64,000 nt of DNA, taken from NCBI GenBank assembly GCA_913056235.1, contig CAJXMW010000007.1, forward strand, positions 62,001 through 126,000, in the 5' to 3' direction. Under the pieces are notes generated by a model. That model had not been told where the DNA came from and searched no databases. It worked only from the letters and a program-made list of their open reading frames with translations. This DNA comes from an uncultured Fodinibius sp. Lineage in GTDB: Bacteria > Bacteroidota > Rhodothermia > Balneolales > Balneolaceae. Positions 6,264-61,277 of the stretch are shown here, one piece after another (within the stretch, counting starts at the first letter, position 1; the number at the start of each line of letters is the position of its first letter). A program made the translations under genes and the position numbers.

Positions 6264-9125
6264 ATGAAGCGAATAATTGCCATATTCTTACTTGTGTTGG
6301 GGTTTTCTTCTGCGACTGATGCGCAGATTCTTCCTTTCCGTACATACTCTATCGAACGAGGTTTGAGCGAAGCAGTTGTCAACAATCTGATGCAGGATGA
6401 GGAGGGATACCTCTGGATTGGCACCAGCTACGGACTCAACCGGTTTGATGGCATCAGCTTTAAAAATTATTACACCGAAGATGGCCTGCTGAATAACAAG
6501 ATTTATTCGCTCTACGAGGATAACCAAAATCAGCTCTGGATTGGTACCGGTGCCGGTGTAAACGTGATGCGACAAGACAGCATCCATACCTTGCCAATGT
6601 TGAAACCCCTGCAGTCCAGCACGATCCTGTCTATCTATCAGGATAGTCATAACGAGTACTGGTTTGCGACCGATGGCGAAGGGGTTTGGCATCTGGATCG
6701 TCAAAACAACTTAACGCAGTATCTTACCATTCACGGTATGGGTAGCGACCGCGTGCGGGATATCCTGGAGGATGACAACGGTGTGCTCTGGTTTGCCACT
6801 CGTGACGGGTTGACGAAGCTCGAGAACGGGAACTTCCGAACGTTTACAACTCGTCACGGCTTGCCTGATGATCGTCTGAGAGATCTGTTGCTGGCAGATG
6901 ATGGCTCACTCTGGGTGGCCAGTCGCGGGGGACTCTGCCATGTCCAAAATGCAACATTTAACTGTTTAACAGAACAGGATGGGCTGGTTAATAATCGAAT
7001 TCAGTCTATTTCGAAAGATAAGAATGGCAATCTCTGGATTGGTACAGAAGAGGGCGCCAGCTACTATGCCGATAGCACTTTTACTAATTATTCGGTTGAG
7101 CAGGGACTTTCCAGTAATATCATCCATGCTACACATTACGATCGGGAAGGTAATATTTGGTTCGGGACTTTTGGGGGCGGAGTCAGCATTTTTCTGGGCA
7201 ATCATTTTAAAAGTTATACCGTGGAACAGGGTTTACCTAATAATGTAATTACCTCGATGACCGAAGATGATTCCGGACAACACTGGATTACGACCTACGG
7301 CGGTGGGATATCCAGGATTGATGAAAAGGGCTTTACCAATTTGAGTTCTAAGGATGGACTGGTTGATAATAAAGTTTATACCATAGAAAAAGGGGATCAG
7401 GGCCAACTGCTAATTGGCACACGTTGGGGATTAAGTATTTATGATGGAAATAGCTTTTACAATTTCGATGAAACAGAGCTTCCCTATCGCAAAATCCGGT
7501 CTGTGCTGGATCCCGAAAATAGTGATGGCCTGTGGCTGGGAACCTATGGAGAAGGGCTTTTGCGATATAAAGATGGAAAGTTTAAACAATATACCGAGGA
7601 AGATGGCTTGCCAAACAACATTGTGATGTCGTTGGAAGAAACCTCCGATGGAGCTGTTTGGGCAGCAACTTATGGCGGAGTGAGCAAGGTTAATGATGGC
7701 ACGTTTACCAATTATTCTATTCAGGATGGACTGCCCAACAACGGTGTGCTCGACATTTTGAAAGACCAATCGGGGAGACTATGGTTTGCCACCTACGGAG
7801 GGATAGCACGCTTCGTTGACGGCGAATTTGAAACTATTATTACCGATGACGGGCTACCGGATGAAGTGAGTTACTTTATTGAACAGGATAATCGCGGGAT
7901 CTACTGGATAGGATCCAACAAAGGGGTGATCCGCTTTGATTATCAGGCATTTCGGTCTGGGGATGAGGCGGCGAAAGCCCGTGCTTTTAAATTGATTACC
8001 CAGGACCAGGGACTGGTAGCCAACGAAATGAACGCCGGAGCCTCATTTAAGGATAGCGATGGTCGATTGTGGTTCGGATCGGTTGGAGGTGTTACCGTGT
8101 TTGATCCTGCCAAAGAAATCATAAATCAAGCAGCGCCCAACATACATATTGAAAATGTGCGCGTTTCGGGTGAATTGATCCGGATAAAGTCACCGTTGGA
8201 AATTGAAAGTGACTTCCAGAATGTTACCTTCGAGTTTATCGGCATTAGTTTTTCGGCCCCTGAGCAGGTGCGCTATCGCTATCGGCTAAAGAATTCGGGT
8301 GAAGACTGGCAGCAAACTACTCAGCGGTCGGTCCGATATTCAGCGCTAATGCCCGGCGAATATATTTTTGAAGTTAAGGCCCAGAGCAGTGATAGCCGGT
8401 GGAGTACAAAAACAGCGCGCATTTCGTTTGAGGTGCTGGCACCTTTTTGGCTGCAGTGGTGGTTTATTGGGATACTATGCCTGGCCTTAATTGGCATTGT
8501 GCTGTTTATTTACAACTACTACCGGGTGCGCAAGATGGTCGAAATTGAACGGATGCGCGTGCGCATTGCCAGCGATCTGCACGATGATGTAGGTTCTGCA
8601 CTTACCGAAATTGCTCTACAATCGGATTTCTTGCAGACGATGGAGGTCTCCGATAAACTACAGGAATCACTCCAGCAGATCGGAACGCAAAGTCGGAAAA
8701 TCGTTTCCAGCCTAGACGATATTGTCTGGTCCATTGATGCCCGCAACGATACCATGGGCGACCTTACAGATCGCATGCAGGATTATGTTAACAATGTGTT
8801 GCCCGAAAAAGAAATTGCATATCACTTTGAAGGCGACATGCAGGAACGGCTGACCGTATCCCTTAAAGAAAACCTGTATCTTATTTTTAAAGAAGCAATT
8901 AATAATATTGCGAAGCATTCAAATGCGGATCGTGTTGATGTTACGCTCTCAACGAATGGACACGGTTTTCTTATGAGCATCAGGGATAATGGGACCACGG
9001 CCAACAATGAGCGGAAAACAGGACAGGGATTACATAACATGAAAATGCGAGCGAAACGTGTTGATGCAGATGTTACTTTTAGTAATAGCGACGGTTTTGA
9101 AGTGAGAGTAGAAAATCGTAACTAG
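6264..9125 (+). CDS. periplasmic-propeller sensor histidine kinase (NarL-type partner)
   Basis: A 953-residue membrane sensor. A signal peptide (1-20, ending TDAQ) precedes about a dozen regulator-propeller repeats (about 25-620) with recurring EDDNGVLWFAT/LWIGT motifs, two seven-bladed propellers' worth. A Y_Y_Y-type Ig-like domain (about 640-715) and one transmembrane helix (about 729-752, WWFIGILCLALIGIVLFIY) follow. The cytoplasmic part is a HisKA_3 kinase with the phosphoacceptor His773 in LHDDVGSALTEI and a HATPase domain with N-box KEAINNIAKHSNADRV. There is no fused receiver or AraC domain, unlike many Bacteroidota hybrid versions. The NarL/FixJ regulator at 9260 is the evident partner. 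Ligand unknown; polysaccharides or envelope cues are typical for this family. Confidence 0.92.
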   Translation: MKRIIAIFLLVLGFSSATDAQILPFRTYSIERGLSEAVVNNLMQDEEGYLWIGTSYGLNRFDGISFKNYYTEDGLLNNKIYSLYEDNQNQLWIGTGAGVNVMRQDSIHTLPMLKPLQSSTILSIYQDSHNEYWFATDGEGVWHLDRQNNLTQYLTIHGMGSDRVRDILEDDNGVLWFATRDGLTKLENGNFRTFTTRHGLPDDRLRDLLLADDGSLWVASRGGLCHVQNATFNCLTEQDGLVNNRIQSISKDKNGNLWIGTEEGASYYADSTFTNYSVEQGLSSNIIHATHYDREGNIWFGTFGGGVSIFLGNHFKSYTVEQGLPNNVITSMTEDDSGQHWITTYGGGISRIDEKGFTNLSSKDGLVDNKVYTIEKGDQGQLLIGTRWGLSIYDGNSFYNFDETELPYRKIRSVLDPENSDGLWLGTYGEGLLRYKDGKFKQYTEEDGLPNNIVMSLEETSDGAVWAATYGGVSKVNDGTFTNYSIQDGLPNNGVLDILKDQSGRLWFATYGGIARFVDGEFETIITDDGLPDEVSYFIEQDNRGIYWIGSNKGVIRFDYQAFRSGDEAAKARAFKLITQDQGLVANEMNAGASFKDSDGRLWFGSVGGVTVFDPAKEIINQAAPNIHIENVRVSGELIRIKSPLEIESDFQNVTFEFIGISFSAPEQVRYRYRLKNSGEDWQQTTQRSVRYSALMPGEYIFEVKAQSSDSRWSTKTARISFEVLAPFWLQWWFIGILCLALIGIVLFIYNYYRVRKMVEIERMRVRIASDLHDDVGSALTEIALQSDFLQTMEVSDKLQESLQQIGTQSRKIVSSLDDIVWSIDARNDTMGDLTDRMQDYVNNVLPEKEIAYHFEGDMQERLTVSLKENLYLIFKEAINNIAKHSNADRVDVTLSTNGHGFLMSIRDNGTTANNERKTGQGLHNMKMRAKRVDADVTFSNSDGFEVRVENRN

Positions 9126-9150
9126 AATTAAAGAATGTTTCAAAAATAAC

Positions 9151-9226
9151 GTGTCATGCTGAACTTGTTTCAGCATCTATAGGTTATATTCAAAGGTTAT
9201 GTTTTAGATCCTGAAATGGATGACAC
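9151..9226. repeat. imperfect inverted-repeat element between kinase and regulator
   Basis: Ends GTGTCAT and ATGACAC are inverted. The inner segments TTTCAGCATCT and AGATCCTGAAA also pair, so the arms match over about 18 positions with a small deletion. The left arm itself holds a hairpin (ATGCTGAA, five bases, TTCAGCAT), and AGGTTAT occurs twice in the middle. It resembles a non-autonomous repeat of the kind scattered in Bacteroidota intergenic DNA. No second full copy was found in the window. Confidence 0.5.
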
Positions 9227-9259
9227 CGTGATCTTAGTCGCAATTAAATCACAAAAGTT

Positions 9260-9895
9260 ATGGCCTCAGTCGTTGGAATTGTTGAAGACAACAAAAAAAT
9301 AAGGGATTTAATCCAGCGGTATCTCGATATGCAGGACGACCTTTCGTGTCCTGTAGCTGTGGATTCGGTGGAGGATATGATCGAATATCTCGAAGAGCAT
9401 CCCCAGCCGGATGTCATTTTGATGGACATTCAGCTGCCGGGGATGTCGGGAATTAAGGGTATTGGCTTGATTAAAGAAAAGTACACTGATATCGATATCA
9501 TCATGCTTACGGTGTATCATGATTCGCACAAGATTTTTAATGCACTCCGGGCCGGTGCATCGGGATACTTGCTGAAACATACTTCGCTTCCAGAGATCAA
9601 GGAGTCTATCCTGAAGTTGGTGGATGGCGGTGCACCCATGTCTCCACAAATTGCTCGCAAGGTGATTAATCATTTTCAGGAAAATGCGCCCAAGAAAAAT
9701 TCCGACTCTGATCTCACGCCGCGCGAACACGATATCGTTAATGGGCTTGTGGACGGCCTCAGCTACAAGATGATTGCTGACCGCTACGACATTTCTATTG
9801 ATACGGTTCGTGCCCATATCCGAAATATTTACAAGAAGCTGCACGTTAATTCTAAGGCAGAAGTGATTGCGAAATCGCTGAAAGGCGAAATTTAA
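9260..9895 (+). CDS. NarL/FixJ-family response regulator
   Basis: A 211-residue two-domain regulator. The receiver (1-120) has the acidic pair in IVEDNKKI, phosphoacceptor Asp56 in VILMDIQLPG and the conserved Lys in GYLLKHTS. The C-terminal LuxR-type helix-turn-helix (about 148-205) has LTPREHDIVNGLVDGLSYKM and DTVRAHIRNIYKKL. It lies 134 bases after the propeller histidine kinase on the same strand and should be phosphorylated by it. Start ATG at 9260. The following lipoprotein and beta-barrel genes on the same strand are possible targets (inference from position only). Confidence 0.93.
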   Translation: MASVVGIVEDNKKIRDLIQRYLDMQDDLSCPVAVDSVEDMIEYLEEHPQPDVILMDIQLPGMSGIKGIGLIKEKYTDIDIIMLTVYHDSHKIFNALRAGASGYLLKHTSLPEIKESILKLVDGGAPMSPQIARKVINHFQENAPKKNSDSDLTPREHDIVNGLVDGLSYKMIADRYDISIDTVRAHIRNIYKKLHVNSKAEVIAKSLKGEI

Positions 9896-10017
9896 ATTCC
9901 TTCACATGAACATGTGATTGAATCATGAGAGTGTAGGTGTTAATATATGAATGAAATGAGATAGAAGTGATTTTCCGACCTGATAAGTGAGGTTAATTGC
10001 ATAAAACGGAGTTTACC

Positions 10018-11397
10018 ATGAAAAGTTTAAAAGTAGTTGGAATTACCCTGATCGCCCTTCTCCTGACAGGATGCTATACGCAGCTGCAGTATTCGCAGAC
10101 GATGCGTGAGATTACCGACCAGGAAGAGAAGCAGGCCAAGGCCTACTCGTGGAATGACGATGAGCAGGCCAATGAGAAAGCTCAAATTGAAGGTGAAGCG
10201 GCCCAGCGCAGCGAAGAATATTCAGATTCGGCTGTAGCTGACGAGGAATATATCCCCATACCGTACAGAGATTACCAATACGCCGATAAGTACAAAGCCT
10301 GCAATTGTAATCCCTATAACTCGTACCATTTCTATGGGGATTCCTATTTCTTCCCGTCGTATGGGAGCTGGTATAATTACCACCGTTCACGGTTCGGAAT
10401 AGGATTTACGAGTAGTGCCTTTTACCGCTGGCATATGAGGCAATATTTTGGTCACTCATTTACACTTGGCTTTTCTTGGGGATACGATCCCTTTGGTTAT
10501 TATTACGACCCATTTGGGTATCCGTTCTATGACTATTACGGGTATCACCGACCTTATGCTTTCAACTATTACTATTTCTATGGTAAATCTGGCTATGGTC
10601 CCGGTTATTACAATGATGGGAAATCGCGAACCAACATTCGCTATGGACCGCGAAATGTAGGAGTCGATCGCGTGGTAACGAATCGAAACCGTTCTGGTGA
10701 TTCTCAGGTGCGAAGTCAAAGCAGTGCCAACGATGGAAGCAGACAAGCAGTTCGCACGCGTTCTGTGGGCACGTCACGTTCAAGTGGTACAGTGAATCGT
10801 AACAGTAGTGGCTCTACTAGAGTTACACGCAGCCGTAGTAGCAATAATGGTAATAATGGTGGAAAGAGTGGGTCAGCCCGGACGCGGTCTCGTGGCAATG
10901 AGCAAGACAATAGCCGAGACCAAGTATATATCGACCGGACTGATGAGCCATCAACACCCGTAATTATCTCTGGTGACCGTTATCGTGAAATTCGTTCACG
11001 TCAGCTAAGCAACAGTTCGGTGCGAACGCTTGAAAATTCAGCAGATCTCCGTAGTCGCTTGCGTACTGTTCAGGATAAAAATACCAATAGTCGGATCGAG
11101 CGTAACCGGCCTACATTCTTCGAACGGATGAAAAGCTTTTTTGACAATAACAGCAGCCGAATCATCAAATCGAGAAGCACAAATAGCCCCAATCGTATTC
11201 GTTCACGTTCTACTAATTCAGGCCGTTCATCTTCCGTTGGTCAAAGCAGCAGCGGGAGCTCTCGTTCGAGCGTAACCCGCAATCGCTCCTCCTCATCCAG
11301 TAGTAGCAAGTCGCGTGGTAGCTCATCATCATCCTCTTCGCGTAGCCGTAGCGGTGGGGGAAATTCTTCAGGTTCGGAACGCAGCCGCGGCAATTAG
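10018..11397 (+). CDS. Tyr-rich, Arg/Ser-rich surface lipoprotein
   Basis: A 459-residue predicted lipoprotein of unknown function. The signal peptide ends in LLLTGC with lipidated Cys19. Start ATG 10018 is preferred over an upstream TTG at 9997 because a GGAG sits 7 bases before it. Residues 20-80 are charged and helical. Residues 80-200 are very rich in Tyr, Phe and Gly (YYYDPFGYPFYDYYGYH), with a CNC pair near residue 94. From about 215 to the end the protein is dominated by Ser, Arg, Asn and Gly with many RSR/RSS units, so it is strongly basic. Such composition suggests a disordered surface or adhesive protein rather than an enzyme. No homologous domain was recognised. Confidence 0.75.
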   Translation: MKSLKVVGITLIALLLTGCYTQLQYSQTMREITDQEEKQAKAYSWNDDEQANEKAQIEGEAAQRSEEYSDSAVADEEYIPIPYRDYQYADKYKACNCNPYNSYHFYGDSYFFPSYGSWYNYHRSRFGIGFTSSAFYRWHMRQYFGHSFTLGFSWGYDPFGYYYDPFGYPFYDYYGYHRPYAFNYYYFYGKSGYGPGYYNDGKSRTNIRYGPRNVGVDRVVTNRNRSGDSQVRSQSSANDGSRQAVRTRSVGTSRSSGTVNRNSSGSTRVTRSRSSNNGNNGGKSGSARTRSRGNEQDNSRDQVYIDRTDEPSTPVIISGDRYREIRSRQLSNSSVRTLENSADLRSRLRTVQDKNTNSRIERNRPTFFERMKSFFDNNSSRIIKSRSTNSPNRIRSRSTNSGRSSSVGQSSSGSSRSSVTRNRSSSSSSSKSRGSSSSSSSRSRSGGGNSSGSERSRGN

Positions 11398-53803: not shown

Positions 53804-54072
53804 CGATGAAGCTATTAAGTCAAAAATGGATAAAAAATAAAATCTCGCTCAATACACAGATTTTAAAATAGGATACTTCCCGGAAATAAAAAGGATTACA
53901 CAATAATTAAGGTAACTATGATTGTAGTAATTAGTTGCATGCAAAGAGTGTTCGATCACAGGAACAGGTTTTAAAGGTTTGCTTTTGTATGAAATGGATC
54001 AGCTGTTTTTGAGATCCTTTAATTCTAATATAGCAGATATCAAATCAACAATAAGGTTGACGGTGGAAGGAT

Positions 54073-54282
54073 ATGAATATGGTTCCGACCGGGTTACAAA
54101 GACTCAATGAAATTTTATTTGGCGGCTTAATTCCAAACTAAACATGTCTGGGTCAGGGTGGAGCCGGTTATGGCAAATCACTATTGGAGTAATATTTTTG
54201 GGAAGCGGTCGCAAAAAACGACGAGAAGGTCCCAAATATCTCCCTTGGAGAGCTAAAGAAAAGCATCTCCGGCTAATGTTGC
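54073..54282 (+). pseudogene. remnant of a second KaiC-like gene
   Basis: From ATG 54073 the frame encodes VPTGLQRLNEILFGGLIPN, then a TAA, then TCLGQGGAGYGKS in the same frame. This lines up with STGLEGLDEILHGG, LISNQAYLVQGG and GPGTGKS of the intact KaiC-like protein at 56480, with CAA turned into TAA and Walker A altered. A later piece in another frame, VPNISLGELKKSI (about 54226-54265), matches the intact VLYITLGESSENI. The rest of the gene is gone; a kinase remnant follows at once. Confidence 0.8.
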
Positions 54283-54458
54283 TATTTCGGGGCTATACTA
54301 TCATTGAGACGCTCATTAAACAGCTTGAAGCCACATTGAATATTGATACTCAAAGGGACTGTCTATTTCAATTACCTATCCGCGAAAGAAAGAAATTAGA
54401 GGATCAGCCAGTTCGCTGGTATAGTCTTCCAAGCTTAAAAGTGCGAATTCCCGTTTAA
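54283..54458 (+). pseudogene. remnant of a second histidine kinase C-terminus
   Basis: GYTIIETLIKQLEATLNID (about 54292-54347) is nearly the same as GFTIIETLVKQLQADIDVS at the end of the kinase at 57930-61277, followed by a decayed tail with LFQLPIRERKK. It abuts the KaiC remnant, so a deletion removed the end of one gene and nearly all of the next while keeping the same order (KaiC, then kinase) as the intact pair. Confidence 0.75.
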
Positions 54459-54626
54459 TCTTACTTTTAATGGTCTTTACTTTTAAATAATAGTGTGTTC
54501 AAGACTGTATTGATAACGCTATCAAATATTCCAGTTGTTTAACAATCATTTCATTGAATGTATGAAATGGAACAAAATCTATTTATTGCCTTTAAAAGTA
54601 CCTTTGGAAGAAAAAGGGGAAAGCAT

Positions 54627-55283
54627 ATGAGCAGTATTCGCTTACTTATAGCAGACGACCACAAAATAGTTCGCGATGGTCTGCGGGCCTTGCTGGAAGA
54701 GATTTCAGATTTCACGGTAACGGCAGATGTAGCCGATGGATCGGAATTGTTGGAGCATTGCAAGAATCATCAGTCAGATTTGCCCGATATCATTCTCATG
54801 GACGTTAATATGCCTGAGGTAAATGGAATTGAAGCGTGTAAAATTATCAAAGACACTTACGATCAAGTGCAGGTATTGGCGTTGACTATGATGCAGGGAA
54901 AGGAACATATTCGTGATATGCTGCAGGCGGGTAGTAGTGGTTATGTGTGCAAAAATTCTGATATAAATGAGCTTGAGGATGCAATACGTACCGTTTATAG
55001 TGGCAACTACTACTTTAGCGATGAAGCTGCCTATTCGGTATTAAAGGATCTGACCTCAGATGAGGAAGCAAAAAAATCTAACAACAAAGAGCTTACCAAT
55101 CGGGAGCAAGAGGTACTGGAGCTTATTTGCCAGGAATTTACCAATCCCGAAATTGCCGACAAACTCTACATTAGCGTACGAACCGTGGATGCCCATCGAC
55201 GTCACCTGTTGCAAAAAACCGGTGCTCGCAATACGGCTGGGCTCGTTCGTTATGCCATGGAGCATCAACTACTGAATTCATAG
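54627..55283 (+). CDS. NarL/FixJ-family response regulator 1
   Basis: A 218-residue regulator. Receiver (1-125) with Asp10/Asp11 (LIADDHKIVRDG), phosphoacceptor Asp59 in ILMDVNMPEVNG, Thr in LTMMQG and Lys in GYVCKNSD. LuxR-type helix-turn-helix (about 150-212) with LTNREQEVLELICQEFTNPE and RTVDAHRRHLLQKTGARN. Start ATG 54627 has GGGGA 7 bases upstream; the longer frame from 54558 adds 23 residues before the receiver and is unlikely. It lies after the kinase remnant and before a second regulator, and is the likely partner of the LOV-PAS kinase or of the lost one. Confidence 0.93.
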   Translation: MSSIRLLIADDHKIVRDGLRALLEEISDFTVTADVADGSELLEHCKNHQSDLPDIILMDVNMPEVNGIEACKIIKDTYDQVQVLALTMMQGKEHIRDMLQAGSSGYVCKNSDINELEDAIRTVYSGNYYFSDEAAYSVLKDLTSDEEAKKSNNKELTNREQEVLELICQEFTNPEIADKLYISVRTVDAHRRHLLQKTGARNTAGLVRYAMEHQLLNS

Positions 55284-55291
55284 CGATACTG

Positions 55292-55335
55292 GGTGAATTG
55301 CCTATATCCAAAATAGGTGAATTGACCTATATACA
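55292..55335. repeat. tandem direct repeat upstream of regulator 2
   Basis: GGTGAATTGCCTATATCCA (55292-55310) is repeated as GGTGAATTGACCTATATACA (55316-55335), 24 bases apart, about two helical turns. Between and overlapping them is CCTATATCCAAAATAGG, which recurs in similar form at 56313. A candidate regulator-binding region. Confidence 0.55.
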
Positions 55336-55485
55336 TATTGTCTGAAATCATGTATCCTTATCTAACAATATTTCAGGCTGATATGTAGGAATATTGGTTT
55401 ATAATCAAGCCCTTCTCGGCACACACTGTATACATATTGCAATTACAACAATCTGAATAGTTTTAAAAGGTTAGGCGGTTAAGTA

Positions 55486-56118
55486 ATGGAATCAGTGAAT
55501 ATACTGATAGCTATAGAGTATCAAATTGTGAGAGATGGAATTAAAAAAATACTACATGATGCTCCTGATATTGCCGTCGCAGGTTGTGCCAAAAATATTG
55601 ATGAGCTCATGGAGTTGCCTTTTGAGGATGGAAATATTCTTGTTTTAGATTTGGATATGCCAAACCTTGAGAATTCGCTGACTGTGCCAGAATTGGCCGA
55701 AAACTACAACGAGCTGAGCATCCTTGGCATCAGTGACAATGAAAATCCCTTTAGACTAAAACAGTTTATGCAGTCTGGGGGAGCAGGATATTTACTTAAA
55801 AAGCGGAGCGCCGAGGAGTTGATTGACGCCATTAAACAGATTTATGATGGGGGTAGATATTTATGTGATAAGGCTTTAAGCCTGCTCGTTAAGGCCGATC
55901 ACAGCAATAAAACGACTGTCCTTGACCTGACGGAACGCGAAGTGGAAGTGTTGGTACTTATCTGTCAAGAGCTTACCAATCGTGAAATTGCCGACAAGCT
56001 TGGAATCAGCGTTCGAACCGTAGATGCGCACCGTCGGAATATGCTTCAAAAAACGGGTGCAAAAAATACAGCGGGTCTGGTTAAATATGCAATAAAGCAT
56101 CATATATTTAGTCCTTAA
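55486..56118 (+). CDS. atypical NarL-type response regulator 2
   Basis: A 210-residue paralogue of the regulator at 54627; the DNA-binding domain is very close (LTEREVEVLVLICQELTNRE; RTVDAHRRNMLQKTGAKN). The receiver differs: the acidic pair Asp-Asp is Ile10-Glu11 (ILIAIEYQIVRDG), while the phosphoacceptor Asp55 (LVLDLDMPNLE), the Ser (LGISDN) and Lys (GYLLKKRS) remain. Loss of one Mg2+ ligand suggests weak or no phosphorylation, so it may act constitutively, bind another signal or tune regulator 1. Start ATG 55486. Upstream lies the direct repeat at 55292-55335. Confidence 0.92.
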   Translation: MESVNILIAIEYQIVRDGIKKILHDAPDIAVAGCAKNIDELMELPFEDGNILVLDLDMPNLENSLTVPELAENYNELSILGISDNENPFRLKQFMQSGGAGYLLKKRSAEELIDAIKQIYDGGRYLCDKALSLLVKADHSNKTTVLDLTEREVEVLVLICQELTNREIADKLGISVRTVDAHRRNMLQKTGAKNTAGLVKYAIKHHIFSP

Positions 56119-56312
56119 AACCATTCTCAAGATGGAGAAGCCAACCTTTACTTTCGCTCTCGTTGATTTGCCGTTCATAACTACAAGTAGGATAAACTGA
56201 TACACCCTTTGCTGGATGCCGGTGTTAATCATGACGTTCACATCAATTCGTATATTATGATCTTTTGGATATTGTAAAGCTCTTCCTTTGGTAACCCACT
56301 CCGTTAAAATAC

Positions 56313-56330
56313 CTAAATTTCAAAATAGGC
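56313..56330. promoter_or_regulatory. CCTA-N-AAAATAGG motif upstream of the KaiC-like gene
   Basis: CCTAAATTTCAAAATAGG is near-identical to CCTATATCCAAAATAGG at 55301-55317; both are imperfect dyads and both lie 150-185 bases before a gene of this locus. The rest of 56119-56479 (361 bases) holds no recognisable gene. Possibly a shared operator; function inferred. Confidence 0.4.
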
Positions 56331-56479
56331 TTTTTACGTCATTCTTATCGTAATATAGCTGTGTATATTCCAATTCATAATTTCAGCTTTTGAGCGGAAA
56401 TACTAGCCGTTCTACTCACATCGTTATAAAGGGTATTACCTAATTTGTCATTTCCACAATTAAGATCAGCACCTAGTAA

Positions 56480-57907
56480 ATGGGAAAAATATCTACCGGC
56501 TTAGAAGGTTTGGACGAAATTCTTCATGGTGGCCTAATTTCTAACCAGGCTTATTTGGTTCAGGGAGGTCCGGGTACGGGTAAATCAACCTTTGGGCTCC
56601 ATTTTATGAGCGAGGGTATTCGCAACGGTGATAATGTGCTATATATCACGCTGGGTGAGTCCAGCGAAAACATCAAGAAGAATGCCGCTCGCATGGATAT
56701 TGACATTACCGGGTTGGATTTCCTCGATTTAAGTCCCCGGGAAAACTTGTATCAGAATTCGAACGCCTACAATGTATTTTCAGCCGCCGAAGTAGAGCAG
56801 GGGCCTATTATGGATGCTATCATTGAGGCCGTGGAGAAGCATCAGCCCGATCGGGTGTTGGTGGATTCTATAACGATGCTGCGCTTTTTGCACCAGGATC
56901 CCTTTCAGATGCGCAAGATGGCGCTGTCGTTTATTAATCATATTACAAGCCGAAACGCCACGCTGATGCTGATTTCAGAATCGGCTTCGAGTTCGGCCGA
57001 AAAAGATGCCACTTTCTGGGTAGATGGAATTATTGAGGTTGATAACGACTCGGCCTGGCGAAAAGTAGCGGTAACAAAATACCGAGGTTCCGATTATGAA
57101 TCCGGTCCCCATGCTTTCAAGATTACTGGTCAGGGAATCACTGTTTACCCGCAACTACGTCCCAATGAATACAACCGACAATTTGAACAAGAGGTGCTCT
57201 CCTCTGGCATTGACGAGATGGATGATCTGCTGCACGGGGGCATTGAAAAAGGGACCGTCAGCCTGATTGTGGGAGCTACCGGTGTGGGCAAAACCAATCT
57301 TGGGTTACAGTTTTTAAAAGAAGCCGCATCCAGAAATGAACGTTCGGCACTTTATACTTTTGAAGAATCCCGCGAGTTGATCTTGAAACGATCCCAAATG
57401 GTCAATATTCCTGTTGATGAAATGATTGAGGTGGGCAACCTGAAAATCAAACCGGTCGAACCACTTTCTTATTCCCCGGATGAGTTTTCTGCAATGGTAC
57501 GTCGGGATGTGGAAGAAAATGATACGCGCATGGTTATGATCGATTCTATCGGGGGCTACGACTTGGCCGTGCGTGACGAAAATATCCTGGAGCGCCTGCA
57601 TGCGCTTACGGTTTATTTGCAAAATATGGGCGTTACGACATTCCTGATTAATGAATCACAGGATGTGACCGGCCGTTTTTCGGCAACGGAGATGAATGCA
57701 AGCTACCTGGCCGATAATATTTTATTCCTTCGTTACCTGGAGATTAACGGTGAACTCCGAAAAGCCATCGGGGTATTAAAAAAACGGCTAAGTGATTTTG
57801 AGAAAAGTATTCGGGAATATGAGATTACTTCTGAAGGCATAAAGGTTGGCAAACCACTGGAGAACATGCGGGGCATATTAAGCGGGAATCCCGAAATTAT
57901 AGATTAA
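56480..57907 (+). CDS. KaiC-like double-RecA ATPase
   Basis: A 475-residue protein of the KaiC family with two RecA-type domains. Domain 1 (about 1-235): Walker A QGGPGTGKST (Lys35), catalytic-type Glu in ITLGESSENI, Walker B-like RVLVDSITMLRFL. Domain 2 (about 240-475): Walker A GATGVGKTN (Lys271), YTFEESRELIL with paired Glu, and RMVMIDSIGGYDL. It is close to KaiC in length but there are no kaiA or kaiB genes here, so it belongs to the widespread KaiC-like group that is often next to sensor kinases. It is likely a cytoplasmic ATPase/autokinase signalling hub. The LOV-PAS kinase starts 22 bases after its stop and is almost surely co-transcribed. Confidence 0.93.
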   Translation: MGKISTGLEGLDEILHGGLISNQAYLVQGGPGTGKSTFGLHFMSEGIRNGDNVLYITLGESSENIKKNAARMDIDITGLDFLDLSPRENLYQNSNAYNVFSAAEVEQGPIMDAIIEAVEKHQPDRVLVDSITMLRFLHQDPFQMRKMALSFINHITSRNATLMLISESASSSAEKDATFWVDGIIEVDNDSAWRKVAVTKYRGSDYESGPHAFKITGQGITVYPQLRPNEYNRQFEQEVLSSGIDEMDDLLHGGIEKGTVSLIVGATGVGKTNLGLQFLKEAASRNERSALYTFEESRELILKRSQMVNIPVDEMIEVGNLKIKPVEPLSYSPDEFSAMVRRDVEENDTRMVMIDSIGGYDLAVRDENILERLHALTVYLQNMGVTTFLINESQDVTGRFSATEMNASYLADNILFLRYLEINGELRKAIGVLKKRLSDFEKSIREYEITSEGIKVGKPLENMRGILSGNPEIID

Positions 57908-57929
57908 CGAGTTTATAAGTCCTGTATTG

Positions 57930-60900
57930 ATGACAAATGTATTAGCAAATAATGATTCCTTTCTACTTGAAGGTCGTAAACCGGTGGTTCTCCTGTGGAT
58001 ACAGAATGCCCAGGATCGCCGACTGATAAAGAAGTACCTGTCTGACCAATGGGTTATTAATGTTGGCGATAACGGTATTGCAAATAAAGACTTTGATCTC
58101 TGTATCCTTGATGAACAGTCGTTTGATGAGAACAAGGAATATCTCCAGCAGGTGAAAGAAGAGGCTGCACCAATATTTCTGCCTTACCTCTTGTTGTCGC
58201 CAAGCCAGCAAACGGTTAGAATGAAGCCAGATATTCTGGATTTTGCCGATGATGTGGTCTATATCCCTGCATCTAAAAAACTGCTGAAGACGCGAATTAA
58301 CATGCTGCTTAGACAGCGTGAGTACTCGCTTGAGCTCGAGGCAAAAAACCGGCAACTAAAAGAAAAAAATGACAAGCTTAGGGTATTTGAACAGGCCATT
58401 GATTCTACCAAAGATGGAGTTTTAATTACTGACCTCAGTGAGGAAAATAATCCCATCATATATTGTAATGAGGGATTTGAACGTCTTACAGGTTACTCCC
58501 AGGAAGATGTAATAGGACACAACTGTCGCTTTTTGCAGGGTGATGACCGTGATCAGGCAGCCCGTCAAGAAATACGATCTATTATAGAAAACAGGGAAAA
58601 TGGACAGGTAAGACTGCGTAACTATCGCAGGGATGGTACAATGTTCTGGAACGAACTGAGCTTGGCGCCCATCAATAATGAAGGTAGAGGAGGTGATTTT
58701 TTTGTCGGTGTACTGCGGGATGTAACTGAGCTGGTTGAAACACAGCAACAATTGCAGGAAGAAAAAGAGCGCTATCGCCTGATTGCCGAAAATGCCACAG
58801 ATATGATATCCCTACATGCTCCGGACGGCACCTACCTGTATGCATCACCGGCTTCTCAAGATTTAATAGGATGTGAGCCTGAGGAGTTAGTAGGACAAAA
58901 TGCCTATGATAATATGCATCCCGAGGATAGAGAACGGATTTTAAACGAAAACGATATACAGTTTGCCAAGGAATCTGTCGTCCGTTGGACTTTCCGCAAG
59001 CAGACCAAAGATCAGGGTTACAAATGGGTGGAAGCAACCATGCGGCCCATACGGGATGACAATGGAGAAGTTATCGAGATTCAGGCTAGCACGCGTGATA
59101 TTTCGGCCCGCAAAGAATACGAGCGTAAGCTCGAAGAAGAAAAAGATTTTATTAATGCATCTATTGAAAGCTTACCTGAACTCTTTTTCTTGATAGACGA
59201 GAACCAGAATTTTGTAAAGTGGAACAATATTGAACAGGAGCTTGGCTATACGGACGAGGATGTTCAGGATATGCACCCGCTGGATTTTTACCGGGAAGAA
59301 GATCACGAATTTATCACTTCTAAAATCAACAAAGCCTTTACAAGTGGTAATGCCGAGGCAGAAGTGCAAATGCAGGCAAAAAATGGAGAGTTGATTCCAT
59401 ATTATATCAAAGCCAAACACTTTAATCGGGGAGATGAAAATTACATTGTTGGCTCATGTATCAATCTGTCGGATATTAAAGAAGCCCAATATGAGCTGGA
59501 GCAGCACCGACAGTTGCTGGATGCTATTATCAACCAGACGAAATCACTTATCTATTTAAAGGATGAAGATCGAAAATACAGGCTGGTTAACGACAGCTAC
59601 CTGGAGTTCTATAATTTAAAACGGGAAGAAGTTCTTGGTAAAACAGACCTTGAAGTTCACGGCAAAGAGTTCTTAGACCATGTAGGTGAAACCGATTACC
59701 GGGTGCTCAAGGCTGATCAAGCATCTGAGATTGAGGAAATGAGATTTAATGGTGACGGTGAAAGACGAATTTATCATACCATCAAATACCCTCTAAAAGG
59801 TGTACCCGGTTTTGAAAATTGTATGTGTGGTATTTCAACGGATATCACCGATCTTAAACAAGCGACTCAGCAACTACAAGAGCGTATTAAAGAATTGCGT
59901 TGCCTCTTTAATGTATCCAAGCTTACCGAGCACCATAGCAACATCGCTGAGCTACTCGACGAGGCCGTAACGTATTTGCCCGATGGAATGCGGTATCCCG
60001 AAATTACCCAAGCGGCTATCGAGTTTGACGGTGATATCTATCAAACGAAAGGTTATCGGGAGACAGATTGGATGTTGTCCTCCAGAAGTGTCAGAGAAGA
60101 AGGTAAGTCTGTTCACGCACATATAGCTTATACAGAAAACAAGACAAATTTGAATGAAGCTCCATTTTCGGAAGAAGAGAAGCAATTGATTGATGGCATT
60201 GTGGAGACGCTTTCATCTCAAATTGATCGCATTTATGCGCGAGAAAAACTCAAGGAAAGCCAAAAGCGGTGGAAGGGACTTGTCGAAAACGATCCCGACC
60301 TCATACAAACCCTAAAACGTGATGGTACTATTATATTTATTAACCAATCGGGGGCAAGTATTTTGGGTTTCGATACCCCGAAAGAGGTGATTGGCAAAAA
60401 CTATCTTGATCTGATAGAAGTGGATGACGAAGGTGCTCAACTTACCCAATCACGGATAGAGCAGGTTATAAATGGCAAAAAAATTCCCGCCCAAATTTAT
60501 AAAATAAAGGCCGTCAACGATAGACAATTATATTTAGAATCTCAGGCAGTACCCATAACGCTGGACACAGGCGAACCAGGAATTCAGCAGGTAGCGCAGG
60601 ATGTGACCGATCGTATTATGTACGAGGAGGAGCTGAAGCAGTCGTTAAAAGAGAAGGAGACCCTGCTACAGGAAATTCATCACCGGGTCAAAAACAACTT
60701 GGCTGTGGTATCGGGTATGATGGAGCTGCAGACGTTCAATACTGAAAATAAAGAAGTTAAAAGTCTGCTTTCGGACAGCACGAATCGGATCAAGACGATG
60801 GCCTTGATTCACGAGAAGCTGTATCAATCCGAGTCGCTTTCGGAAATTAATTTCGGCTCGTATATCCGTGATTTGGTGACCAGCATTGAAAAAATATCGC

Positions 60901-61277
60901 CTGATGATAATATCAGCCTAGAGTTCGATTGCGATGCTTTTAGCCTCAATATCAACCAAGCGGTGCCTACGGCTCTTATTGTAAATGAGATTATATTAAA
61001 TGCTTATGAGCACGCTTTTGAAGAGGGGGAAAGGGGACATATTAAGATCTCGATGAAGCAGGAGCAAGGCCAGATTACGGTTTGTATCCGTGACAATGGG
61101 AGAGGTTTGTCAAGTGATTTTAACCATCAGAAAAATGATTCAATCGGTTTCACCATTATTGAAACTCTTGTTAAGCAGCTCCAGGCTGACATTGATGTCA
61201 GCAGTGAAGAGGGACTGTCGATTATCTTTTCTTTTGAAAAGCAGGATATCAAGGGATCTTCCAGCGCGCTCATCTAA
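57930..61277 (+). CDS. LOV/multi-PAS sensor histidine kinase (HisKA_2 type)
   Basis: A 1115-residue cytoplasmic kinase without membrane helices. The N-terminal ~125 residues resemble a receiver without the phosphoacceptor Asp. A short coiled coil leads to PAS 1 (about 155-270), which carries the LOV flavin motif GHNCRFLQGDD with the photoactive Cys199, followed by NYRRDGTMFWNELSLAPI and GVLRDVTE, as in blue-light receptors. PAS 2-4 follow (about 280-405, 405-525, 530-655), then a GAF-like segment (about 660-785) and PAS 5 (about 790-905). The kinase part has phosphoacceptor His918 (EIHHRVKNNLAVV), N-box NEIILNAYEHAF, G-box RDNGRGLS and IGFTIIETL. Start ATG 57930; a TTG just before is unlikely. 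It should phosphorylate regulators at 54627/55486. Confidence 0.92.
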   Translation: MTNVLANNDSFLLEGRKPVVLLWIQNAQDRRLIKKYLSDQWVINVGDNGIANKDFDLCILDEQSFDENKEYLQQVKEEAAPIFLPYLLLSPSQQTVRMKPDILDFADDVVYIPASKKLLKTRINMLLRQREYSLELEAKNRQLKEKNDKLRVFEQAIDSTKDGVLITDLSEENNPIIYCNEGFERLTGYSQEDVIGHNCRFLQGDDRDQAARQEIRSIIENRENGQVRLRNYRRDGTMFWNELSLAPINNEGRGGDFFVGVLRDVTELVETQQQLQEEKERYRLIAENATDMISLHAPDGTYLYASPASQDLIGCEPEELVGQNAYDNMHPEDRERILNENDIQFAKESVVRWTFRKQTKDQGYKWVEATMRPIRDDNGEVIEIQASTRDISARKEYERKLEEEKDFINASIESLPELFFLIDENQNFVKWNNIEQELGYTDEDVQDMHPLDFYREEDHEFITSKINKAFTSGNAEAEVQMQAKNGELIPYYIKAKHFNRGDENYIVGSCINLSDIKEAQYELEQHRQLLDAIINQTKSLIYLKDEDRKYRLVNDSYLEFYNLKREEVLGKTDLEVHGKEFLDHVGETDYRVLKADQASEIEEMRFNGDGERRIYHTIKYPLKGVPGFENCMCGISTDITDLKQATQQLQERIKELRCLFNVSKLTEHHSNIAELLDEAVTYLPDGMRYPEITQAAIEFDGDIYQTKGYRETDWMLSSRSVREEGKSVHAHIAYTENKTNLNEAPFSEEEKQLIDGIVETLSSQIDRIYAREKLKESQKRWKGLVENDPDLIQTLKRDGTIIFINQSGASILGFDTPKEVIGKNYLDLIEVDDEGAQLTQSRIEQVINGKKIPAQIYKIKAVNDRQLYLESQAVPITLDTGEPGIQQVAQDVTDRIMYEEELKQSLKEKETLLQEIHHRVKNNLAVVSGMMELQTFNTENKEVKSLLSDSTNRIKTMALIHEKLYQSESLSEINFGSYIRDLVTSIEKISPDDNISLEFDCDAFSLNINQAVPTALIVNEIILNAYEHAFEEGERGHIKISMKQEQGQITVCIRDNGRGLSSDFNHQKNDSIGFTIIETLVKQLQADIDVSSEEGLSIIFSFEKQDIKGSSSALI

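Follow-up and report, generated by a model that had tools for sequence, protein, structure and literature searches.

The locus described here lies in a 64,000-nucleotide stretch of an uncultured Fodinibius sp. (assembly GCA_913056235.1, contig CAJXMW010000007.1, positions 62,001 to 126,000; hereafter the window), and it centers on a gene for a KaiC-type ATPase followed by the gene of a large sensor histidine kinase. On the plus strand, the order is the remnant of a second KaiC-kinase pair, two NarL-type response regulator genes (RR1, 54627 to 55283, and RR2, 55486 to 56118), the intact kaiC (56480 to 57907), and the kinase gene (57930 to 61277), which begins 22 bp behind kaiC on the same strand. 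These four intact genes are where a first-pass annotation, made from the sequence without database searches, had placed them. In what follows, G000 is the genome of the window, other G numbers are comparison genomes of its family or phylum, and L numbers are the loci opened for comparison.

The KaiC-type protein has 475 residues and two domains, both with their Walker A motifs; PF06745 matches it in two stretches (E 7e-79), and solved KaiC structures match residues 3-472 (best 8zn5, E 2e-65). It falls under the cut-offs of the NCBIfam clock-KaiC equivalogs (206.6 vs 546.25 bits for TIGR02655; 278.8 vs 408 for NF006799). A Ser-Tyr phosphosite pair is present in all 11 full-length KaiC proteins of the family, this one included, and fits the SY/TY/SF criterion of the kaiC-Nt_HK class discussed below; the CI domain has Gly-Glu at the place of Glu-Glu in a solved KaiC. 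KaiB (PF07689) was found neither in G000 nor in any of the other 12 genomes that have this KaiC or what is left of it; among 89 family genomes it is present in two only, G050 and G057. In G050 we found a different system (L045:7111-9545, G050:C302), in which a KaiC of 24% identity is adjoined by two KaiB matches. Because KaiB is absent, the KaiABC oscillator as known does not, on gene content, apply to the window locus; kaiA is described as restricted to cyanobacteria in the part of a review that deals with it (PMC6627678).

The 1115-residue kinase consists of an N-terminal pseudo-receiver (about residues 15-140; 57972 to 58349), a LOV domain (residues 153-267; 58386 to 58730), further PAS domains, HisKA_2, HATPase_c and a conserved KGSSS tail. 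Pfam reports four significant PAS stretches besides HisKA_2 and HATPase_c, and gives no match for the N-terminal domain. A model of that domain computed from a 14-sequence alignment has a (beta-alpha)5 fold with a predicted local distance difference test (pLDDT) score of 85, and nearly all of the 50 PDB fold matches listed are named response regulators or receivers (top match KdpE, E 5e-6), the exceptions in name being 4dad and the 6oec fusions. None of the 50 is named KaiB or SasA, and a KaiB/SasA-like N-terminus was rejected on this comparison, which is one of fold and not of descent. The residue aligned to the phospho-acceptor Asp (D61) is invariant in the 14 sequences; the Lys and the acidic pair that working receivers carry are, by eye, missing from their places. 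Elsewhere in the window, positions 8565-9104 resemble the HisKA_2/HATPase core of this kinase (tblastn E 4e-5) and probably belong to another kinase.

The first PAS domain of the kinase had been proposed to be a LOV domain, and this reading holds: the adduct Cys lies in GHNCRFLQ (residues 196-203), in line with the pattern GxNCRFLQ, and the best structural match of the modeled domain is a blue-light photoreceptor (4gcz, 46% identity), with the YtvA LOV domain (2pr6) at 44%. The active-site Gln (FVGIQ), present in the other eight LOV domains of the family, is Leu in the window (FVGVLRDVT). According to passages of one study, LOV receptors with Leu at the place of this Gln still photocycle and signal, and natural examples of the exchange, often with Leu or Ile, exist; one such construct responded about half as strongly and recovered in the dark tenfold more slowly (PMC9098866). 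A LOV domain follows the pseudo-receiver in 9 of 14 KaiC-linked kinases and is, judged from these architectures, a frequent but optional sensor inserted at this place, whose distribution on the kinase tree would, as we read it, need several losses or exchanges. We infer that light control of the module is plausible, with the Gln-to-Leu change and the LOV losses as warnings.

Within the family, the close form of the pseudo-receiver accompanies KaiC. A profile of the domain, the 14 rows of which all come from KaiC-linked loci of the same genomes that it then scores, matches 13 of 89 family genomes at E <1e-40, a set identical to that of the genomes in which this KaiC or fragments of it were found; the next-best family genome, G046, reaches 2e-17. 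In each of the 13 the kinase gene lies directly 3' of kaiC on the same strand, 2-36 bp away. Of 394 phylum genomes, 94 have a match at E 1e-5, with 3.5e-17 as the best value, and many of these looser matches lie in open frames of 1,300-1,500 aa that we take for hybrid sensors. By these searches KaiC is, in this family, a constant companion of the close form but not of the domain at large, and this tie is the main reason for which a KaiC-docking module is proposed below. At loci L145, L146 and L147 (in G046, G095 and G388), a relative of the KaiC-linked domain stands at the head of a large PAS sensor protein.

The first-pass annotation had also read 54073-54458, upstream of RR1, as what is left of a kaiC gene (its start) and of a kinase gene (its end) in the same order, with nonsense and frame changes, and had proposed that one of two KaiC-kinase modules was lost by a deletion of several kb. 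We scanned all 64 kb in six frames with profiles built from relatives only, the window's own genes being excluded (75 residues of the KaiC N-terminus from 10 relatives, and the kinase C-terminus from 13). The KaiC profile matches 54067-54270 with 52.1 bits (E 1.1e-15); apart from both domains of the intact KaiC it has no other real match in the window, where the next score is 2.0 bits. The kinase profile matches 54291-54353 with 23.2 bits (E 9.5e-7) and, in another frame, 54338-54421 with 9.3 bits (E 0.021), the best score elsewhere in the window, the intact gene aside, being 0.6 bits. The remains thus align with the families of the intact pair above chance. The KaiC remnant comprises codons 1 to about 68 of a second kaiC in a single frame with internal TAA stops (54073 to 54276, plus strand), and it is followed on the same strand by part of the C-terminal HATPase region of a second kinase (54291 to 54353) and, past one frameshift, by the end of that kinase (54353 to 54424; E 0.021 alone), with the KGSSS..L tail typical of these kinases and a stop at 54424. 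The kinase remnant therefore reaches its genuine C-terminus and is preserved slightly better than had been noticed. A search of the whole genome recovers the KaiC remnant, with three TAA, at E 2.2e-8 and finds a single intact KaiC of this type. Plain tblastn with the window kinase weighs against the kinase remnant, its piece scoring 30.4 bits and thus below the 32.7 bits at 8565-9104; because this piece does not stand out, the case for the kinase remnant is carried by the profile result and the gene order.

With homology to both genes, the same gene order and disabling changes, these remains have the properties of a pseudogene pair, and they are what is left of a second KaiC-kinase pair of the same order and strand that was lost by internal deletion, much as first proposed. 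About 407 KaiC codons and most of the kinase gene are missing, which by arithmetic against intact lengths puts the deletion between about 2.9 kb (for a kinase of about 600 aa) and 4.4 kb (for one of 1115 aa). The KaiC remnant is identical to the window KaiC at 29 of 63 positions and to that of G009 at 30 of 63, and the kinase tail to the window kinase at 21 of 43, to G009 at 26 and to G018 at 25; a tree of 109 columns leaves the remnant unplaced (surrounding support 51-58). A recent tandem duplication as the simple account was rejected, since the window's own copies are not those nearest to the remnant. With the copies of sister species at least as close to it as the intact pair, it is hardly a recent tandem copy and would be either an old paralogue or a replaced resident. 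Two intact KaiC of this type were not found together in any of the 92 family genomes searched. A second kinase is retained in G012 and branches outside the other kinases of the genus (98/97 for the genus group, 81/79 for the rest), so that duplication of the kinase within the genus is independently attested, with moderate support. This second kinase of the KaiC-linked type (L036:2214-5201, G012:C1) lies a few genes past the first, with no KaiC directly adjoining.

The 11 full-length orthologous KaiC proteins, the window's included (the others are 56-73% identical to it), come from the same 92 family genomes. In G077 the gene is cut by the contig end, the contig beginning inside kaiC; G028 has fragments, and the distant KaiC of G050 (24%) was not counted. 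Most other genomes give weak KaiC matches, in open frames of about 450 aa, which by their length were taken for RadA-like proteins. Within the window's genus the locus sits among the same flanking genes. RR2 lies upstream in G019, G012, G018, G037 and G034, RR1 besides the window only in G034, and neither was seen at the KaiC locus of G009, G024, G025, G063, G078 or G028. A 118-aa gene directly behind the KaiC-linked kinase (L035:4699-5055 in G019, L036:5978-6334 in G012, L037:12940-13296 in G018) reaches the PAS_8 cut-off in G019 and not in G018, and no remains of it were found in the window. In G028 (L044:10128-10514, G028:C26), next to an intact LOV kinase, KaiC has collapsed to an in-frame reading frame of 128 aa in which parts of both domains survive, and this is either parallel decay or a minimal protein. 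The module thus appears often to have been lost in parts: the second pair and probably a small receiver-like gene (REC*, see below) in the window, KaiC in G028, and LOV domains or regulators in sister species.

RR1 carries what we take to be the canonical phosphorylation residues. RR2 lacks the acidic pair of the receiver, its ADDH motif being replaced and the phospho-acceptor Asp kept in six of six sequences (AIEY in the window, then AVHY, AVHH, ALHH, AVYY and AEHH; G000, G019, G012, G018, G037 and G034). By eye, the DNA-binding helix is almost identical in the two. RR1-like genes are found in 61 of 89 family genomes at E 1e-35, and 10 of the 12 regions opened around them are a second conserved locus of the order kinase-RRx-REC*-kinase, although the small gene gave no BLAST match in one of these 10; the other two regions held another regulator. 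In the window's genome the kinases of the RRx locus are of the HisKA_3 and HisKA_2 types. REC*, a small stand-alone receiver-like gene, has probably also left a remnant in the window (56152 to 56276, plus strand; 21.6 bits, where 200 shuffles gave 20.0 at most), and between RR2 and kaiC it is present in G019 and G018 and broken in G012. The REC* of the RRx locus is homologous to that of the KaiC locus (HHalign probability 98.8%, with profiles of 8 and 2 sequences), and in a tree RR1 and RR2 come together, apart from RRx (89/86, long branches). Because of the REC* homology and this grouping, the regulators of the KaiC locus look like a duplicate of the RRx cassette; RR1 and RR2 are, by their place in the tree, an old split. 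The further suggestion that each KaiC-kinase pair had one regulator has to be abandoned, both on account of this old split and because G034, of another genus, has RR1 and RR2 with a single pair. Five other regions with RR1-like genes (in four genomes without this KaiC, and a second region of G012) show no remains of the KaiC locus at E 1e-4 and are other regulator loci.

A palindrome lies in front of both RR2 (CCTA-N9-TAGG, 55301 to 55317) and kaiC (CCTA-N10-TAGG, 56312 to 56329). Forms with spacers of 8 to 10 occur within 300 bp upstream of 10 of 17 kaiC and RR2 genes, against a mean of 0.21 and a maximum of 3 in 1000 dinucleotide shuffles, the 17 upstream sequences being related and hence not independent; forms with spacers of 7 to 11 lie outside genes, or at most over the last bases of a gene, in 9 of 10 RRx loci. 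At the RRx locus of the window's genome (L081:6150-12426, G000:C5), as at L083-L091, mostly the same palindrome stands between the genes. Of the sites in the genome that lie outside open frames, three are at the KaiC and RRx loci and one is upstream of another PAS protein. We therefore envision a narrow circuit that would join the KaiC and RRx loci, with the palindrome putatively bound by this regulator family. A second conserved element 5' of RR2, CCTATATACATATTG (55326 to 55340, plus strand), is the sole exact match to CCTATATACATNTTG in the genome, and a possible decayed operator 5' of the remnant pair (53851 to 53872, plus strand) matches the operator region of the intact kaiC at 18 of 22 bases, a weak match by itself (E 0.11).

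Beyond the family, a scan of a species-genome collection with KaiC yielded one distant archaeal locus only. Among plasmids, 285 of 72,556 hold a relative of this KaiC at E 1e-20, and in the best 40 of the 285 the top matches are haloarchaeal (up to 49% identity), with one from Acaryochloris (48.5%). We opened 14 plasmid regions in 13 records, 6 chosen by the KaiC match and 8 by the kinase match, and the E values given for the N-terminal domain refer to a search of 12 proteins. A kaiC gene directly followed by a gene for a protein that starts with the pseudo-receiver (E 1e-18 to 1e-30) was found in Halorussus vallis, Haloferax larsenii, Halorubrum ezzemoulense, Halanaeroarchaeum and two Haloarcula; in Acaryochloris a pseudo-receiver kinase (E 3e-27) is divergent from kaiC. 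The pseudo-receiver profile (A2) misses the kinases behind KaiC in Rhizobium and Paraburkholderia; the Ramlibacter protein was outside this comparison. In the two Haloarcula a LOV motif (GRNCRFLQ) lies behind the pseudo-receiver, in the same order as in the window, and no kinase core was detectable in either of these LOV proteins; Natrinema has a LOV protein without this N-terminus. On a Haladaptatus caseinilyticus plasmid (L125:4980-6810 and 8891-10736), there are two kaiC genes a short distance apart, and a stand-alone receiver-like gene overlaps each of them. Because the KaiC tree separates the family (100/99) from the haloarchaea (97/97), no recent exchange between them is visible in this sample of 25 sequences.

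Taken together, these findings could describe a KaiC-coupled switch for light and stress, in which the pseudo-receiver docks on KaiC and the regulators form an autoregulated loop without KaiB, rather than a self-sustained clock; we would give this reading an even chance. The pseudo-receiver would bind the KaiC hexamer, by which the kinase would read or set the ATPase or phosphorylation state of KaiC, and the LOV and PAS domains would feed in light and other cues. The HisKA_2 kinase would then phosphorylate a NarL-type regulator, either RR1 or its widespread paralogue RRx, and regulators of this family would bind CCTA-N-TAGG 5' of kaiC and RR2 and at the RRx locus, closing the loop; RR2, lacking the acidic pair, might act without ordinary phosphorylation, for example as a competitor at the same DNA sites. 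One could go further and envision a KaiC light switch shared by two domains of life, with the pseudo-receiver of a LOV kinase docking on KaiC so that blue light and the ATP state of KaiC meet, and with regulators from two loci closing the loop through one operator, but this wider version is doubtful.

Several observations weigh against the proposed switch. The three best looser matches of the pseudo-receiver, in G046, G095 and G388 (1e-16 to 1e-19), head PAS proteins of 931-1519 aa, and no KaiC was found in the 11-15 kb opened around them; a strictly KaiC-only domain is thereby rejected in its broad form, and these relatives lower the odds both of docking on KaiC and of a switch common to two domains of life. 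Haladaptatus salinisoli likewise has the domain (E 2e-31) and no KaiC in the 8.5 kb shown, and two Halorussus KaiC close to that of the window have no same-strand kinase behind them. RR1 is at the KaiC locus in G000 and G034 only. The palindrome is not over-represented in the genome (15 sites per strand, where a reversed control pattern has 64), and 15 of its 22 sites are inside open frames and 7 outside, which led us to reject a large palindrome regulon. Finally, LOV is missing from 5 of the 14 kinases (G009, both of G012, G018 and G037), and because of this and of the Leu in place of Gln, light may not matter in the window.

The last point leads to a rather unlikely alternative, namely that the sensor of this strain has lost its responsiveness to light, LOV being in the course of degeneration and the module running on its other PAS inputs. 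In its favor are the Leu, which only the window's LOV domain has among nine in the family, the LOV-less kinases of G009, G012, G018 and G037, and the decay of neighboring genes; however, the Cys and the NCRFLQ motif are intact, and LOV receptors with Leu for Gln still signal and have natural examples, according to the same passages (PMC9098866). Alternatively, the locus might be an hourglass or damped timer, in which Ser-Tyr phosphorylation of KaiC runs down over hours, the kinase reads it out and light through LOV resets it daily. Two ATPase domains with Walker motifs and the Ser-Tyr pair conserved in all 11 proteins agree with such a timer, and part of a 2011 paper raised an hourglass for this class of KaiC (PMC3164672), but the absence of KaiB and the Gly-Glu in the CI domain speak against it, and we consider it unlikely. 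As to the remnant, it could represent an older resident pair, later replaced by the incoming intact pair, rather than a duplicate. The kinase tail, nearer to G009 and G018 than to the window, speaks for such a replacement; yet the intact KaiC groups with its genus (99/96; with G009 92/89) and lies in a conserved neighborhood, and the combined tree does not place the remnant. We consider a replaced resident improbable.

We know of no settled role for KaiC without KaiA and KaiB, and it is in this respect that the locus is of interest: it is a small, testable system with one KaiC, one kinase with a closely accompanying domain, a candidate operator, and a defined light sensor found in some relatives and missing in others. 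The natural losses (the collapsed KaiC beside a LOV kinase in G028, the LOV-less kinases and the decayed copies) provide ready-made comparisons. If the proposed switch is real, KaiC gains a direct light input outside cyanobacteria, and if its wider version holds, the pseudo-receiver-LOV order common to Haloarcula and this family would reflect a light input to KaiC that is ancient or was exchanged between lineages and does not depend on the KaiA/KaiB clock of cyanobacteria.

A class of kaiC with a dedicated kinase (Nt_HK) was proposed in 2011 from the genome of Ramlibacter tataouinensis, in a "dark-blue" context; passages of that paper describe the class as having no kaiB and sites of the Ser-Tyr type, and report for Ramlibacter that cotranscription of kaiC and kinase was shown, that an hourglass was suggested, and that interaction with KaiC through the N-terminal domain was proposed (PMC3164672). 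The window pair shares with this class a kaiC followed by a specific kinase with a special N-terminal domain, the lack of kaiB and a Ser-Tyr type phosphosite, and by gene order, lack of kaiB and phosphosite we assign it there. It differs in that its N-terminal domain models as a receiver fold, whereas the paper, in the same passages, noted a likeness both to receivers and to SasA/KaiB (PMC3164672), and in having LOV behind this domain, a HisKA_2 kinase, NarL regulators and a shared candidate operator. The pairs on haloarchaeal plasmids (e.g., Haloarcula halophila, NZ_CP119560.1) are alike in that KaiC adjoins a gene starting with the same domain, with the LOV order in two Haloarcula; in contrast to the window, neither Haloarcula LOV protein has a detectable kinase core of its own, no NarL regulator is annotated in the stretches shown, and KaiC is about 41% identical. 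HWE/HisKA_2 LOV histidine kinases, as presented in part of a published account (PMC10359499), have the same combination of LOV sensor and HisKA_2 core, to which the window adds an N-terminal pseudo-receiver, more PAS domains, linkage to KaiC and a replaced active-site Gln. With cyanobacterial KaiABC and its kinases SasA and CikA, the window has in common a two-domain KaiC, a kinase proposed to read KaiC, and a pseudo-receiver, such domains being mentioned for KaiA and CikA in a passage of one paper (PMC12632262); unlike that system, the window's genome has no KaiB and its kinase no SasA-type domain. We found no report of a LOV kinase partnered with KaiC in the open-licence papers searched. What we add to these known systems is the receiver-fold model, the LOV domain behind it, the haloarchaeal counterpart, the tight pairing within the family, the candidate operator and the repeated decay.

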